A stretch of DNA of 34,454 nt. Source: Bacillota bacterium. GTDB lineage: Bacteria > Bacillota > Sulfobacillia > JAJZYS01 > JAJYTV01. Shown one piece after another: positions 303 to 10,200 of the stretch. The notes below the pieces were generated by a model. That model worked only from the letters and a program-made list of their open reading frames with translations. It was not told where the DNA came from and did no database searches. The position numbers and the translations under genes were made by a program. The stretch covers positions 1 through 34,454 of the forward strand of contig JAJYSJ010000028.1 in NCBI GenBank assembly GCA_021793645.1, read 5' to 3'. How positions within the stretch are numbered: the first letter of the stretch is position 1; each line of letters starts with the position of its first letter.

Positions 303-1526
303 GTGAAGGCGCGGTCGGCGCTCGCGCAGGGTTTCGTCGCCCTGCTCCTCGTGGCCCTGATGATCATCTACTCGGAGCACGGCTTCCGCGCCTCGCAGGA
401 GGGCATGAAGCTCTTCCTCGACGTGGTTTTGCCTAGTCTTCTGCCCTTCTTCATCCTCTCGGAGGTACTGCTCGCCTTCGGCGTCGTCCACTTCCTCGGG
501 GAACTCTTCGAACCCCTGATGCGCCCGCTGTTCAACGTACCGGGGGCAGGCTCCTTCGTGCTCTCGATGGGCCTCGCGGCCGGCTACCCGATGGACGCCG
601 TGATCACGGCGAAGTTCAGAAAGCAGGGCATGTGCACGCGCGTCGAAGGCGAGCGCATGCTCGCCTTCTCGAACACCGCAGATCCCCTGTTCATCTTCGG
701 AGCGGTCGCCGTCGGCATGTTCGGCATGCCCGCCCTCGGCGCGGCGCTCGCGGCGGCGCACTATATCGGAGCCTTCCTTGTCGGACTCGCATTCCGCTCA
801 TGGGGTCGCAAGGAACCCGAGGAGTCGAGGCCGCCAGTCGTGCAGACGGACGGTACCATCTGGCGAAGGGCGGCGCAGGCGCTCGTCCGCGCACGTGCGG
901 AGGACGGAAGGCCGCTCGGCCTCATCCTGCAGGACGCGATCCGCGACTCCATCGCCACGCTGTTCATGATCATGAGCTTCATCGTGCTCTTTTCGGTGCT
1001 CATTCGTGTTCTGGACGCAACGGGAGTGATGGTCACGGTGCTTTGGCCAGTGGAGCGGCTGCTGGGGCTGGCCGGCTTCGCGCCCTCGTTCGCGCACAGC
1101 GTCGTCCAGGGCATCCTCGAGATCGATATCGGCTCCGCCGCCGTGGCGAAGGTGCCGGCATCGCTCGTGCAGCGTGCGGCCGTCGCATCGGCGATCATCG
1201 CCTGGTCCGGGCTCTCGGTGCAGGGTCAGGTGGCGTCAGTCCTCGCGGACACCGATATTCGCATGCGCCCCTACATCCTGGCGCGGCTGCTGCACGCGGG
1301 GATCGCGGGCGTGCTCACCGTCCTCCTGCTGCCGCTCTTCCACCTGCACGTGCCCACCATCCTGGCGGGGGCAGGGACCGCCCTGACGCCGAAAGGCGGC
1401 TTCATCGGGACACTCGAGCGCGGCGCCGCCCTTGCCGCACTCGCTGCGGCGGCCCCGATCGCACTTGGCCTTGCCTACGGCGCAATGCGCCGCCTGCGCA
1501 TCCTGCGCCTGCGCGTCGGGCGATAG
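303..1526 (+). CDS. ylbJ: Sporulation integral membrane protein YlbJ
   Basis: A 407-residue polytopic membrane protein of the YlbJ family, which contains nucleoside-recognition (Gate-type) membrane domains. In Bacillus, ylbJ is a sporulation gene needed for heat-resistant spores. Family signs are the early stretch LFLDVVLPSLLPFFILSE, the region around GLAAGYPMDAVITAKF, and the second half with IRDSIATLFMIMSFIVLFS and VVQGILEIDIGS. The start is GTG at 303, with GGAGG seven bases upstream. Length and hydrophobic profile look complete. A decayed second copy of the last 240 or so codons lies at 5522-6258, about 4 kb downstream on the same strand, so this is the surviving copy. The presence of YlbJ is the best sign in the window of a spore-former. 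Confidence 0.88.
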   Translation: MKARSALAQGFVALLLVALMIIYSEHGFRASQEGMKLFLDVVLPSLLPFFILSEVLLAFGVVHFLGELFEPLMRPLFNVPGAGSFVLSMGLAAGYPMDAVITAKFRKQGMCTRVEGERMLAFSNTADPLFIFGAVAVGMFGMPALGAALAAAHYIGAFLVGLAFRSWGRKEPEESRPPVVQTDGTIWRRAAQALVRARAEDGRPLGLILQDAIRDSIATLFMIMSFIVLFSVLIRVLDATGVMVTVLWPVERLLGLAGFAPSFAHSVVQGILEIDIGSAAVAKVPASLVQRAAVASAIIAWSGLSVQGQVASVLADTDIRMRPYILARLLHAGIAGVLTVLLLPLFHLHVPTILAGAGTALTPKGGFIGTLERGAALAALAAAAPIALGLAYGAMRRLRILRLRVGR

Positions 1527-5521: not shown

Positions 5522-6258
5522 CAGGGTTCCTTGGCGCGTTTTTGGTCGGGCTCGCCTTCCGCTCCTGGAGACCAATGAACCCGCGGAGTCCAAACCGCCG
5601 TCATCCATGCAGGTGGAACGATCTGGCGAAGGGCGGCGCAAGCACTCGCATGTGCGCGTCAGGAGGATGGACGACCCCGGGGGCTGATCCTCAGGACGCG
5701 ATCCGCGATTCGACCTCCACCCTCTTCATGATCATGAGCTTCATCGTGCTCTTCTCAGTGCTCATCCGCGTTCTGGACGCGACGGGTGCGATGGTCACGG
5801 TGCACTGAACAGTAGAAAAGCCGCTCGGATTCGTGGGCTTGCGCCTGCCTTCGCGCACAGCGTCGTAGAGGGCATCCTCGAGATCGACATCGGCTCTGCG
5901 GCGGTTGCGAAGGTTCCGGCCACGCTCGTTCAGCGTGCAGCCGTCGCGTCCGCGATCATCGCCTGGTCGGGACCCTCGGTGCAAGGACAGGTGACCTCGG
6001 TGCTTTCCGACACCGATATCCGCATGCGTCCGTACATCCTCGCCCGCCTGCTGCACGCGGCGATCGCAGCCATCCTCACAGTGCTTTTGCTCCCATTCTT
6101 CACCTGCACATGGCACGAGCGCTGCCCTCACCATCCCCGGCGGATTCCTCGGCTCCCTGGGGCGCGGCGCCCTGTTGGCCGCCTTCGCAGGCGCCGCTCC
6201 TCTCGGCCTTGCGTACGGTGCAGTACGCCGTCTACGCGTCCTTCGCCTGCGAATCTAG
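5522..6258 (+). pseudogene. Decayed second copy of ylbJ (3' part)
   Basis: The DNA reads as a degraded copy of the ylbJ at 303-1526. The match begins at FLGAFLVGLAFRSW, runs through IRDSTSTLFMIMSFIVLFSV, continues in shifted frame through the EGILEIDIGSAAVAKVPATL region and QGQVTSVLSDTDIRMRPYIL, and ends at the equivalent of the last codons with TAG at 6256-6258. The first 160 or so codons are missing, a TGA interrupts after MVTVH near 5806, and there are several frameshifts. It starts a few bases after the ABC ATPase stop. Its last 27 bases overlap the convergent end of the aminomutase gene, so that gene's C-terminus is antisense to this relic. Confidence 0.88.
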
Positions 6259-7548
6259 CGCCCGGAGAACGCCGAACGACTCCTCTGCCGCAGTGATCGC
6301 CGCGCGAATGTCCTCCGGCGTGTGCCCGAGCGTGACAAACCACGCCTCGTAGGGCGACGGCGCGAGGTAGATGCCGCGGCGCAGCATCTCCCAGAAGAAG
6401 CGACGGAACGCCTCCCCGTCATGCGCCTTCGCCTCCAGGTAATTGCGGGGCGGCGGGTCACGAAAGAACAGCGTGAACATCGATCCGACCCTGCGGATCG
6501 ACACATTGACCCCATAGCGCAGTCCAGCCGCAAGCACACCGCCGGACAGTTCTGCACCGGCGGCCTCGAGCTGCTCGTACACCCCAGGCTGCGATAGGAC
6601 GTCTAGCGAGGCCTGGCCCGCCGCGACAGAAAAGGGGTTGCCCGCAAGCGTTCCCGCCTGGAACATCGGTCCCAGCGGCGCGATCAGGCGCATGAGGTCC
6701 CGCCGTGCACCATAGGCGCCCATCGCAAGCCCCCCGCCAATCGCCTTGCCGAGGCAGACGATGTCGGGTGTGAGGCCGACAGTCGGTCCGATGATGCCGA
6801 AGCGCAGGCGAAAGCCGACGATGATCTCGTCGTCGATCACGAGCGCGCCGCAGCTGTGCGCAAGGCGCGAGACGCCTGCGAGATAGCCCGGCTCCGGTTC
6901 CACGACTCCCATGTTGCCAGAGATCGGCTCGATCAGCACCGCGGCGACATCGCTTCCCTCTTCCGCGATCAGGCGCTCAAATGCCGCCAGATCATTGAAG
7001 GGCAGGCTCCGGACGTCCTGGCGCACCCCTTCAGTGACGCCCTCCGACCCGCCGCCGCCGGTCGTTGTCGCTCCAGATCCCGCGCGTACCAGCACGGTGT
7101 CTGCATGCCCATGATAATTGCCGTCGAATTTCACGATCACGCGGCGCCCAGTGGCGGCGCGGGCCAAACGGATCGCACTCATCACGGCTTCCGTGCCCGA
7201 CGAGACGAGGCGCACCTGCTCCATCTCCGGGACCGCGGCGCAAAGCCGCTCAGCGAATTCCACCTCGCCGCGGCAAGGCGCACCGAACAGCAGTCCCTCG
7301 CGCATCTGGCGTTCCAGCGCGGCGAGCACCTTGGGATGGCCGTGTCCAATGACGTTTGGACCGAAGGCAGCCAAGAACTCGATGTAACGGCGCCCGTCGG
7401 CGTCGATGAAGTGCCCGCCCTCGGCCGCCGCGACGAAGAGCGGCGCTTCACCGCCCATCGGGCGGAAGCTGCGCGCGGGCGAATTCACGCCTCCCGCGAT
7501 TGCTGCCTTTGCGCGCTGCCAAAGCGCCTCCGACTCCGGCCCGATCAT
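6232..7548 (-). CDS. hemL: Glutamate-1-semialdehyde 2,1-aminomutase-like protein (GsaB type)
   Basis: A 438-residue PLP-dependent class III aminotransferase-fold protein. The family converts glutamate-1-semialdehyde to 5-aminolevulinate for tetrapyrrole synthesis. It has the N-terminal GGVNSPARSF motif, the cofactor lysine in CLGKAIGGG (Lys268), the ring-nitrogen aspartate in IDDEIIVGFR (Asp240), and QAGTLAGNPFS. Wording such as EFLAAFGP and IEPISGNMGVVEPEPGYL is closer to B. subtilis GsaB than to the main HemL. The start ATG overlaps the folE-like stop (ATGA), so the two are translationally coupled. It is the last gene of the SDR-folE-hemL operon. Because the neighbouring FolE-like protein is atypical, the aminomutase could act on another amino-aldehyde; the HemL reaction is the default call. 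Confidence 0.85.
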   Translation of the reverse strand: MIGPESEALWQRAKAAIAGGVNSPARSFRPMGGEAPLFVAAAEGGHFIDADGRRYIEFLAAFGPNVIGHGHPKVLAALERQMREGLLFGAPCRGEVEFAERLCAAVPEMEQVRLVSSGTEAVMSAIRLARAATGRRVIVKFDGNYHGHADTVLVRAGSGATTTGGGGSEGVTEGVRQDVRSLPFNDLAAFERLIAEEGSDVAAVLIEPISGNMGVVEPEPGYLAGVSRLAHSCGALVIDDEIIVGFRLRFGIIGPTVGLTPDIVCLGKAIGGGLAMGAYGARRDLMRLIAPLGPMFQAGTLAGNPFSVAAGQASLDVLSQPGVYEQLEAAGAELSGGVLAAGLRYGVNVSIRRVGSMFTLFFRDPPPRNYLEAKAHDGEAFRRFFWEMLRRGIYLAPSPYEAWFVTLGHTPEDIRAAITAAEESFGVLRALDSQAKDA

Positions 7549-8099
7549 GCGCCTGCACCCAGGAGCCGCACTGCCTCTTGGCGCAGCGGACCCTCGACAA
7601 GGGCGCCTCGCGCCGCAACGGTCACCGTCACCGCGCCGAGTTCCCGCCCTCCCACCATCTGCATGCAGAGCTGCTGCGCCTGCAGCGACACGTAGACGCC
7701 CTGCGGACGAAGTCCTCGCCAGAGCGCATCTGCGATCTCTTCCGTCAGGCGCTCCTGGATCTGCAGCTTGCGCGCGCAGGCATCGACTATATGGGCAAGC
7801 GACCCGAAGCCGGCGATGCGGCCGCCTTGAGGCAGAACGGCAAGCTGGGCCCGGCCGAAGAAGGGCAGGAGATGATGCTCACATGTCGAGAAGAACGGAA
7901 CGTCGCGCATCACGATCAGGTTGTCCGGCCCCTCGATGAGTTCTATCTGGGCCGCCGGGTCCTCGCCGTAGCCGGCGTAGAGCTCCAGTGCCGCCTTCGC
8001 CACCGTATCCGGCGTGCCCTGGATGCCCTCTCTCGCCGCATCCTCGCCGATCGCACGCAGGAGATCGCGCACTGCGCGGCGGATGCCTTCTTGGTCCAA
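7545..8099 (-). CDS. folE: GTP cyclohydrolase I-like protein with altered substrate pocket
   Basis: A 184-residue T-fold protein aligning over its full length with GTP cyclohydrolase I (FolE/MtrA), which makes dihydroneopterin triphosphate from GTP. The zinc site is intact: Cys73, His76 (CEHH) and Cys145 (LCM). The purine-anchoring Glu116 (QER) is also kept. However, the E. coli residues that hold the triphosphate or act nearby are replaced: Lys136 by Ser100, Arg139 by His103, Arg185 by Val149, Arg65 probably by Thr32, and His179 by Gln143. It may therefore use a different, perhaps unphosphorylated, substrate. The start is TTG 8099, behind a strong AGGAGGTG that overlaps the stop of the upstream SDR gene; the stop overlaps the aminomutase start. 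The fold call is firm, the reaction is not. Confidence 0.85.
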   Translation of the reverse strand: MDQEGIRRAVRDLLRAIGEDAAREGIQGTPDTVAKAALELYAGYGEDPAAQIELIEGPDNLIVMRDVPFFSTCEHHLLPFFGRAQLAVLPQGGRIAGFGSLAHIVDACARKLQIQERLTEEIADALWRGLRPQGVYVSLQAQQLCMQMVGGRELGAVTVTVAARGALVEGPLRQEAVRLLGAGA

Positions 8100-8110
8100 A
8101 GAGCCACCTC

Positions 8111-8902
8111 CTATCCCTTGCTTGCGCCGAGTACGTCGAGCCCGCCAGTCACGTAGACGATGTTGCCTGTCAGAAAGTCGGAGTCTTCAGCCAAGAAGAA
8201 CTGCACGATCCGCGCCACGTCCTCACCGCTGCCGGAGCGGCCGACGGGCGCCTGCACTCCGCCGCCTTCGCGTGCCTGCGCGATCGTCCCCTCCTTCAAG
8301 GGATCGCGGATGTCGCCGGGACAGATCGCGTTTACGGTGATGCGGTGGGCCGCCTCCTCGACCGCTAGGGTTTTCGCAAGCGAGAGGACGCCGGTCTTGG
8401 CGGCAGCGTAGGCCGAGCGGCCTGCCCAAGCCGGGAGATCGCCGGCGCGGTCGAAGCCGAAGACGATCACCCGCCCTCCGCCGGCACGTCGCATGTGCGG
8501 CAGTACTGCTGTCGCGTAGAGCAGTGTCGCGATGAGGTTGCCTTCCACCATGTCGATTGCCTCGTCCTGCGGCGTGTCTACGAGGTCGCGCCGGCCAACG
8601 AGGAAGGGCCCGGCTGCATGTACCAGCGCCCAGGGAGCGCCGAACTCCTCCATGTGCGCTGCCACTGAGCGCTCTACATCGCCCGTCTTACCTGCGTTCG
8701 CCTGCAGCACCTGGAGCCGCCACCCGAGGCGCCGTGCCTCGTCGGAGAAGACCTGCGCCCGCTCGTCGGATGCCCGGTGGGTCGCAGTGACGGCATAGCC
8801 ATCCGCCAAGAGCGCCTGCGCGACGGATCGGCCGAGTCCCTCGACGCCTCCCGTGATCAGGGCCGAGCGCCGAAGACGGCCGCCGGAACTGGGGTCTGGC
8901 AC
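8111..8902 (-). CDS. SDR-family NAD(P)H oxidoreductase, possible pteridine reductase
   Basis: A 263-residue short-chain dehydrogenase/reductase with the nucleotide-binding motif TGGVEGLG (residues 17-24), HAAGPF in place of the usual NAG, the catalytic pair in SAYAAAKTG, and the ending VTGGLDVLG. The open frame begins at ATG 8935, but there is no ribosome binding site there. GTG 8902 has GAGGGGGG seven bases upstream and gives a normal SDR N-terminus, so I use it. It is the first gene of the operon with the FolE-like and aminomutase-like proteins, which makes a pterin-type ring reductase (PTR1/FolM-like) reasonable, though motif evidence alone cannot separate this from FabG-like enzymes. It diverges from the MFS gene at 9016. 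Confidence 0.8.
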   Translation of the reverse strand: MPDPSSGGRLRRSALITGGVEGLGRSVAQALLADGYAVTATHRASDERAQVFSDEARRLGWRLQVLQANAGKTGDVERSVAAHMEEFGAPWALVHAAGPFLVGRRDLVDTPQDEAIDMVEGNLIATLLYATAVLPHMRRAGGGRVIVFGFDRAGDLPAWAGRSAYAAAKTGVLSLAKTLAVEEAAHRITVNAICPGDIRDPLKEGTIAQAREGGGVQAPVGRSGSGEDVARIVQFFLAEDSDFLTGNIVYVTGGLDVLGASKG

Positions 8903-9015
8903 CCGATCGCCCCCCTCTTCCCCGCTTTGCCCCATAGTGCGGGAGTCGTCCCGAGAAATGTCGAATCCATGATACCAGATGACCGAATCTCACTACTTTG
9001 CGGAGGAAGTGACGC

Positions 9016-10200
9016 GTGGCGAACGACCTGTCGCACTATCCCAGGGCATTTTGGGTGCTCTTCGCCGGGCGCCTCTTCAACTCGATCGGTACCTCCCTCA
9101 TCTTTCCCTTCCTTACGGTCTACCTGCATGCCACCCTCCACGTCAGCCTGGCCATCGTCGGCCTCGTTCTGCTCGGCCAGGGGGCGGCGCAGGTCATCGC
9201 GGTGATCGTCGGCGGCTTGCTCGCGGATTCATGGGGCAGGCTCCCGACCATGGTTCTGTCGCTACTGGCGGGAGCTGCAGCATCGATTGCGCTCGCCTTC
9301 GTGCATGCGCCGATTTGGATTGTGCTGCTGATCATCCTGCGCGGCGGGCTGCTGCCTTTGTTCGCGCCAGCTGCGCAAGCCCTTGTCGCGGACATCGTTC
9401 CCAAGGAGAAGCTCTACCCTGCCTTCAGCATTCAGCGTGTCGCCGCGAACGCCGGAATCATTCTCGGTCCGATGCTGGGCGCGTTCTTGCTGCAGCACTC
9501 CTTCGCCATCCTCTTCCTTCTGAGCGGTTTGATCGCCGCGGTATTCGGTCTGGCTGCCCCGGCGCTTCTGCGCGGCGTGCAGCCCGCACCTCAGCACGCG
9601 TCGCAAAGCATCGGCAGCGGGCTCAGCCTCGCGCTGCTGCGCGACCGCTACCTGCTGGCAATCGTCGGGCTCCTTGTCCTCGTATCTCTGGCCTACTCGC
9701 AACTCTACTGGGTCGTGCCGGGCTACCTGACCATCTACCTTCACCTTCCCGCGGCCGACTTCGGATTCCTTGCGGCCGAGAACGCGGTGCTGGTCGTCCT
9801 CTTCCAGATGCCGATGACCAGACTCTCCCGCAACTGGCAGCCGGCGACCGCGATCGCAGTCGGGGCATCGCTCTACGGCGTAGGCTTCCTGTCGATGGCG
9901 CCACTCGGCAGCTTCCTGCCCTTCTTCATACCGGTCGCCGTGATTACCATCGGGGAGATCCTACTTCAGCCTAGCGTGACAGCACTCGTGGTATCGCGCG
10001 CCCAGGCGACCGACCGAGGCAAGGCGCTTGGCCTCCTCACGCTGGCAAACCGCTCCGGATCCGGAATCGGCCCGCTCCTGGGCGGCACTCTGCTGACCTA
10101 CGGCGGCCCATGGGTACTCTTCACGGGCACTGCGCTCGTCGCAGGCATAGCCGCCGGCGGCTATGCGAGACTGCGGCACCACGTGGAGGGTGCAGCATGA
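9016..10200 (+). CDS. MFS transporter (12-helix, probable exporter)
   Basis: A 394-residue major facilitator protein with about 12 hydrophobic segments and a motif A loop between helices 2 and 3 (GGLLADSWGRLPTM). The general look is that of the YdeE/MdtH-like drug and metabolite exporters. The start is GTG 9016, with GGAGGA nine bases upstream. It diverges from the SDR-folE-hemL operon across a gap of about 110 bases that must hold both promoters. Its last bases overlap the lipoprotein gene (ATGA). The arrangement suggests export of whatever the divergent operon makes, but the substrate is unknown. Confidence 0.85.
   Translation: MANDLSHYPRAFWVLFAGRLFNSIGTSLIFPFLTVYLHATLHVSLAIVGLVLLGQGAAQVIAVIVGGLLADSWGRLPTMVLSLLAGAAASIALAFVHAPIWIVLLIILRGGLLPLFAPAAQALVADIVPKEKLYPAFSIQRVAANAGIILGPMLGAFLLQHSFAILFLLSGLIAAVFGLAAPALLRGVQPAPQHASQSIGSGLSLALLRDRYLLAIVGLLVLVSLAYSQLYWVVPGYLTIYLHLPAADFGFLAAENAVLVVLFQMPMTRLSRNWQPATAIAVGASLYGVGFLSMAPLGSFLPFFIPVAVITIGEILLQPSVTALVVSRAQATDRGKALGLLTLANRSGSGIGPLLGGTLLTYGGPWVLFTGTALVAGIAAGGYARLRHHVEGAA

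Follow-up and report, generated by a model that had tools for sequence, protein, structure and literature searches.

The window (the whole stretch of DNA analysed, 34,454 nucleotides) encodes a divergent homologue of GTP cyclohydrolase I, hereafter FolE', in which the loss of otherwise invariant residues is, as judged from alignments, concentrated on the triphosphate side of the active-site pocket. GTP cyclohydrolase I is the textbook first step of folate synthesis. Our best explanation, held tentatively, is that FolE' is the pterin-forming folate enzyme of the order, and that in the window's family the triphosphate has been given up for a guanine substrate with fewer phosphates. The parts of this reading differ in strength. 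FolE' is probably the entry enzyme to folate; if it is, the balance tips slightly toward a substrate with fewer phosphates. The argument concerning substrate draws on residue loss together with gene content.

The FolE' gene and its pocket

The FolE' open reading frame (7545..8099) lies on the minus strand, a detail absent from an earlier reading of the sequence alone. It begins with TTG and specifies 184 amino acids. A ribosome-binding site, AGGAGGT (8106..8112, minus strand), stands six bases 5' of the TTG and overlaps the stop codon of a gene for an SDR-family oxidoreductase; the FolE' stop in turn shares bases with the ATG start of HemL2, the aminotransferase gene that follows (ATGA). Profile matches, alignments and a table of pocket residues identify the protein. 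It matches PF01227 (GTP cyclohydrolase I) over 175 of 179 positions (1e-50; 172 bits against a cut-off of 27), and this is its sole Pfam match, unlike FolE2/MptA (GTP cyclohydrolase IB, PF02649), which shares with GTP cyclohydrolase I the reaction and the T-fold superfamily. Among NCBIfam models, FolE' passes the cut-off of the broad FolE subfamily NF006826 (193 vs 162 bits) and falls below that of the folE equivalog TIGR00063 (153 vs 181.6 bits). With GCYH-IA (FolE; PF01227, TIGR00063; solved as 1a8r and 1n3r for E. coli and as 1wm9 and 1wur for T. thermophilus) it has in common fold, zinc ligands, guanine-binding Glu, His112 and length, and structural alignment with the solved Listeria and M. 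tuberculosis GCYH-IA enzymes gives 38-40% identity. The predicted model (mean pLDDT 73) aligns with solved GTP cyclohydrolases I at Z of 8-11: the fold is intact in this model, in which the loop 146-154, carrying position 185, is poorly predicted. By sequence, FolE' is a clear FolE homologue.

Alignments of FolE' with solved GTP cyclohydrolases are free of gaps across and near the pocket motifs. In E. coli crystal numbering, C110, E111, H112, H113, Q151, E152 and C181 are kept; unlike GCYH-IA, FolE' lacks R65, S135, K136, R139, H179 and R185, which are replaced by Thr32, Gly99, Ser100, His103, Gln143 and Val149, respectively. The sequence-only reading had listed the conserved zinc ligands (Cys73, His76, Cys145) and Glu116, together with Ser, His, Val and Thr in place of Lys136, Arg139, Arg185 and, probably, Arg65 and Gln in place of His179, and the ungapped alignments agree with it throughout; the change of Ser135 to Gly is an addition. 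In the T. thermophilus enzyme the phosphates are contacted by Lys134, Arg137, Arg183 and Arg64 (counterparts of K136, R139, R185 and R65), ribose hydroxyls by Ser133 (S135) and guanine by Glu150 (E152), and His177 (H179) takes part in N7 protonation (PMC4005822). In the human enzyme the beta and gamma phosphates are held by R216, which corresponds to R185 (PMC7750480).

Homologues sharing the pattern were found in nine genomes, those of the window's family (f1). Publicly named relatives are recorded as metagenome-assembled 'Bacillota bacterium' (JAKAPV010000189.1, JAJZAT010000013.1, JAJYTV010000041.1). All nine members retain the zinc ligands C110, H113 and C181, the catalytic H112, the guanine-binding Glu152 and Gln151, and all nine lack R65, S135, K136 and R185. 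The pattern as first described is thus shared in its core and not at every position: residue 139 is His, Arg or Asp (Arg is kept in two of the nine) and residue 179 is Gln in eight members and His in one. Asp stands at 139 in the sister genus g2. The prevalence of Gln179 contrasts with the reported requirement in E. coli, where replacement of His179 is said to abolish activity (PMC4005822).

To gauge these losses we used a reference set of 44 canonical FolEs from the class and phylum, in which 62 of the aligned columns show an invariance of 95% or more. Ten of the 62 have been lost in the window's family: five of six in the pocket vs five of 56 elsewhere (Fisher p = 2e-4). The claim that all changes fall on one face of the pocket was therefore too strong, since half of the lost invariants (H122, Y125, E176, K189 and P190) lie outside it. 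No compensating Lys or Arg has been gained anywhere in the protein across the nine members. For most close pairs within the family dN/dS is 0.09-0.19; this, together with the sharing of losses, indicates that selection went on acting on the protein while pocket residues were being lost.

Folate genes and the SDR-FolE'-HemL2 operon

Profile searches of the window's genome revealed no other FolE (PF01227) and no FolE2 (PF02649), and the second, canonical folE whose presence the sequence-only reading had proposed to check did not come to light. The genomes of the order are draft assemblies, 76-99% complete (96% for the window's genome). Exactly one PF01227 gene is present in 14 of 15, every copy a variant; the fifteenth, 80% complete, gave no match. 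At 96% completeness a second folE might escape notice in a single genome, but hardly in all 11 genomes of the order that are at least 90% complete, each of which carries one variant copy. The failure to find a canonical folE makes a folate role likelier than a side pathway.

The remaining folate genes are in place. FolK is present in 16 of 17 genomes searched, including that of the window, where an operon fhs-folP-folB-folK (L056, G000:C30, 6505-10100) is without folE. Relatives from the class have folE either flanked by fhs and folP (G016, G042) or adjoining folP (G058, G015, G039, G033); the fhs/folP junction is empty of folE in all four genomes of the order in which it can be read (G000, G001, G005, G012). 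PTPS/QueD was not found in the order, and a role in queuosine/7-deazaguanine or biopterin synthesis via PTPS/QueD was rejected on that account. Since no enzyme requiring dihydroneopterin triphosphate was found, there is no obvious demand for this compound. Classical DHFR (PF00186) is likewise missing from the order, and from 30 of the 31 genomes searched in order and class together. Most of the class, including members with an ordinary FolE, shares this absence.

The gene upstream of FolE' (8111..8935, minus strand) encodes the SDR-family oxidoreductase, which profile matches (Pfam/NCBIfam) and comparison of neighbourhoods make a candidate dihydropteridine or dihydrofolate reductase; the latter role is proposed on the grounds that no classical DHFR was found. 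In each of the order's four families it adjoins FolE', and G049, a relative from the class, has a similar SDR close to a canonical folE. The SDR fold and a folE neighbourhood are shared with the pterin reductases FolM, PTR1 and TmpR. However, FolM/PTR1-type enzymes carry the motif TGX3RXG (PMC1971073), whereas the window SDR has TGxxxGxG (TGGVEGLG), with Arg at that place in no orthologue; its best NCBIfam match is TmpR (NF012208), at 151 bits far below the cut-off of 325. Divergent from the operon is an MFS transporter gene (9016..10200, plus strand), a neighbour kept in f1. Also kept near the operon in f1 (cluster 3) is a membrane protein that contains a nucleoside-recognition Gate domain (window 303-1526).

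HemL2 (6232..7548, minus strand) is a class-III aminotransferase, a diverged paralogue of glutamate-1-semialdehyde aminomutase. It matches HemL/GsaB (3l44) over its whole length at about 440 bits and has the PLP lysine motif in common with it. Unlike the genome's HemL, it belongs to a separate clade, with changes fixed in 13 of 13 operon copies (e.g. A61, A302, S307, F381, T406). We considered HemL2 as the HemL of the genome and rejected this: against the hemL equivalog TIGR00713 it scores 486 bits (cut-off 527), and a canonical HemL encoded elsewhere scores 553. HemL2 is an old, long-separated HemL paralogue that has been kept vertically in the order. The order SDR-FolE'-HemL2 is found in three of four families (f1, f2 and f4); in f3 SDR and FolE' remain together, HemL2 is not adjacent, and a threonine-synthase-like PLP enzyme is next (L044 6161-7729, G011). 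In f4 a homologue of ComA (phosphosulfolactate synthase) follows HemL2 (L041 8393-9304, G012).

Pocket changes in other FolE proteins

Families f2, f3 and f4 also show change at the pocket: in each Ser135 is Gly and Lys136 is Glu or Asp, with R139 and R185 kept. R65 is kept in f2 and f3 and is Leu in f4; position 179 is Gln in f3, and His in f2, f4 and the one exceptional member of f1. The loss is therefore not a requirement of the operon, since an operon of this type occurs with R65, R139 and R185 intact in f2 and f3 and with R139 and R185 intact in f4. In the FolE tree the window's family forms one clade (support 99). The copies of the order could not be placed against those of Microbacteriaceae, and the data neither establish nor reject a single clade of the order's copies excluding Microbacteriaceae (AU p 0.49).

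In the top-scoring loci inspected across 398 genomes of the phylum, no other family shows the full pocket pattern: from about 340 bits, scores fall to 228 at the next-best FolE loci, which have a canonical pocket. A pattern scan of public collections, requiring Gly135 and a GAG codon, listed 80 loci, most from Microbacteriaceae. Among these listed matches, Microbacteriaceae FolEs combine Gly135 with, often, Ala, Thr, Ser or Asn at 136, and Nitrospirota FolEs combine it with Glu or Asp at 136 and mostly Lys at 139. Both groups thus resemble FolE' in the change of Ser135 to Gly and in an altered Lys136, but, unlike it, keep R65, H179 and R185 almost throughout (among the matches listed); the Microbacteriaceae genes, again unlike FolE', mostly adjoin folP, folB or folK. 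One or other of these three genes is near 65 of the 80 listed loci, which makes changes at S135 and K136 compatible with ordinary folate synthesis, and the Microbacteriaceae enzymes lacking K136 and S135 probably still use GTP. In class relative G047 (L045/L046) a FolE with Lys136 replaced by Asp and His179 by Gln directly adjoins folB, suggesting that a folate enzyme may be able to do without His179.

On this comparative evidence the pocket changes of FolE' differ in weight. Those at S135, K136 and H179, being present in Microbacteriaceae, Nitrospirota and G047 FolEs, do not by themselves show a new substrate. The loss of Arg185, by contrast, is peculiar to the window's family: it is found in nine of nine members and in none of the other sequences tabulated, and among the listed matches of the public scan in members of this family only. 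Loss of Arg65 also marks the family out, although R65 is also replaced in f4 and, among those matches, in a few scattered sequences (Lys, Leu or Ala). The changed substrate proposed by the sequence-only reading is still the best reading where it draws on triphosphate-side loss with no compensating Lys or Arg; those changes that recur in folate-linked FolEs lend it less. A GMP-using FolE, or one devoid of the triphosphate site, was not found in the open-access literature.

Substrate and role of FolE'

The main rival to our explanation is that FolE' still uses GTP, holding the triphosphate via other contacts (the kept Arg188, the backbone, a bound metal), perhaps less tightly. We regard this as a serious possibility, if short of probable. 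A single FolE copy in a folate-making genome is what it predicts; the catalytic core is fully kept, FolEs with other folate genes as neighbours tolerate variation at K136, S135 and H179 (in the listed matches and in G047), and the score lies above the cut-off of the broad subfamily. Against it stand the disappearance of all four basic contacts from the window protein with no basic gain anywhere in the family, the Asp at 139 even in sister genus g2, and a score under the equivalog cut-off. It is the dismantling of the phosphate grip in the window's family that points to a substrate carrying fewer phosphates. That FolE' is instead a decaying or structural relic, as the loss of many catalytic-pocket residues might suggest, is scarcely credible: dN/dS of about 0.1 in close pairs, an invariant zinc site, occurrence in nine genomes and a strong ribosome site speak against it. 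The earlier argument against decay, from an intact frame and coupling to both neighbours, is upheld by this purifying selection and conservation, which mainly refute decay.

Two further readings give HemL2 a larger part. FolE', SDR and HemL2 could together make some other pterin- or formamidopyrimidine-derived compound, with dihydroneopterin supplied by an unknown enzyme. Conservation of a three-gene operon with a diverged aminotransferase, the missing folE of the folate operon and a canonical HemL elsewhere, leaving HemL2 free for other work, all fit; but FolB, FolK and FolP are present in a genome with no other FolE or FolE2, and in f3 SDR and FolE' occur with no adjacent HemL2, and we consider this reading improbable. 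Less probable still is that FolE', having Gln for His179, would only open the ring, releasing the formamidopyrimidine (2-amino-5-formylamino-6-ribosylamino-pyrimidinone) to a partner, possibly HemL2, that finishes the reaction. HemL2 is translationally coupled to FolE', and E. coli FolE mutants at His179 are reported to form a formylamino intermediate (Bracher 1999, as cited in PMC7750480). Gln179, however, occurs with no HemL2 in G047, whose FolE adjoins folB, and with no adjacent HemL2 in f3, and in f2, in f4 and in a single f1 member HemL2 accompanies a retained His179. The presence of Gln179 does not track that of HemL2, and a finishing reaction by HemL2 was rejected as the explanation of His179Gln. 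This uncoupling, and the finding of no other pterin source, make both readings less likely.

Under the preferred explanation, a folate entry enzyme acting on fewer phosphates, guanine would be held by Glu152 and Gln151 of FolE', and the imidazole ring opened by zinc-activated water (Cys110, His113, Cys181) with His112. GMP, guanosine or GDP would then yield dihydroneopterin or its monophosphate, instead of GTP yielding dihydroneopterin triphosphate. We infer that FolE' is active and feeds FolB; FolB, FolK and FolP would work as usual, and the SDR of the operon would reduce dihydrofolate. The gene for FolE' would have moved out of the folate operon to a place beside the candidate DHFR replacement. 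The fully specified route, started by GMP or guanosine, bypassing the dihydroneopterin triphosphate pyrophosphohydrolase, with the SDR as DHFR and the HemL-like enzyme possibly a partner, is on the doubtful side.

The triphosphate contacts of GTP cyclohydrolase I are taken as invariant. A bacterial family whose sole FolE lacks them, and in which folP, folB and folK are kept, raises the question of whether the triphosphate could be dispensed with altogether. Most genomes have no known gene for the dihydroneopterin triphosphate pyrophosphohydrolase step (PMC1971073), and a start from fewer phosphates would be a possible detour round that step. The analysis also proposes that, in bacteria in which no classical dihydrofolate reductase was found, the SDR may take its place.
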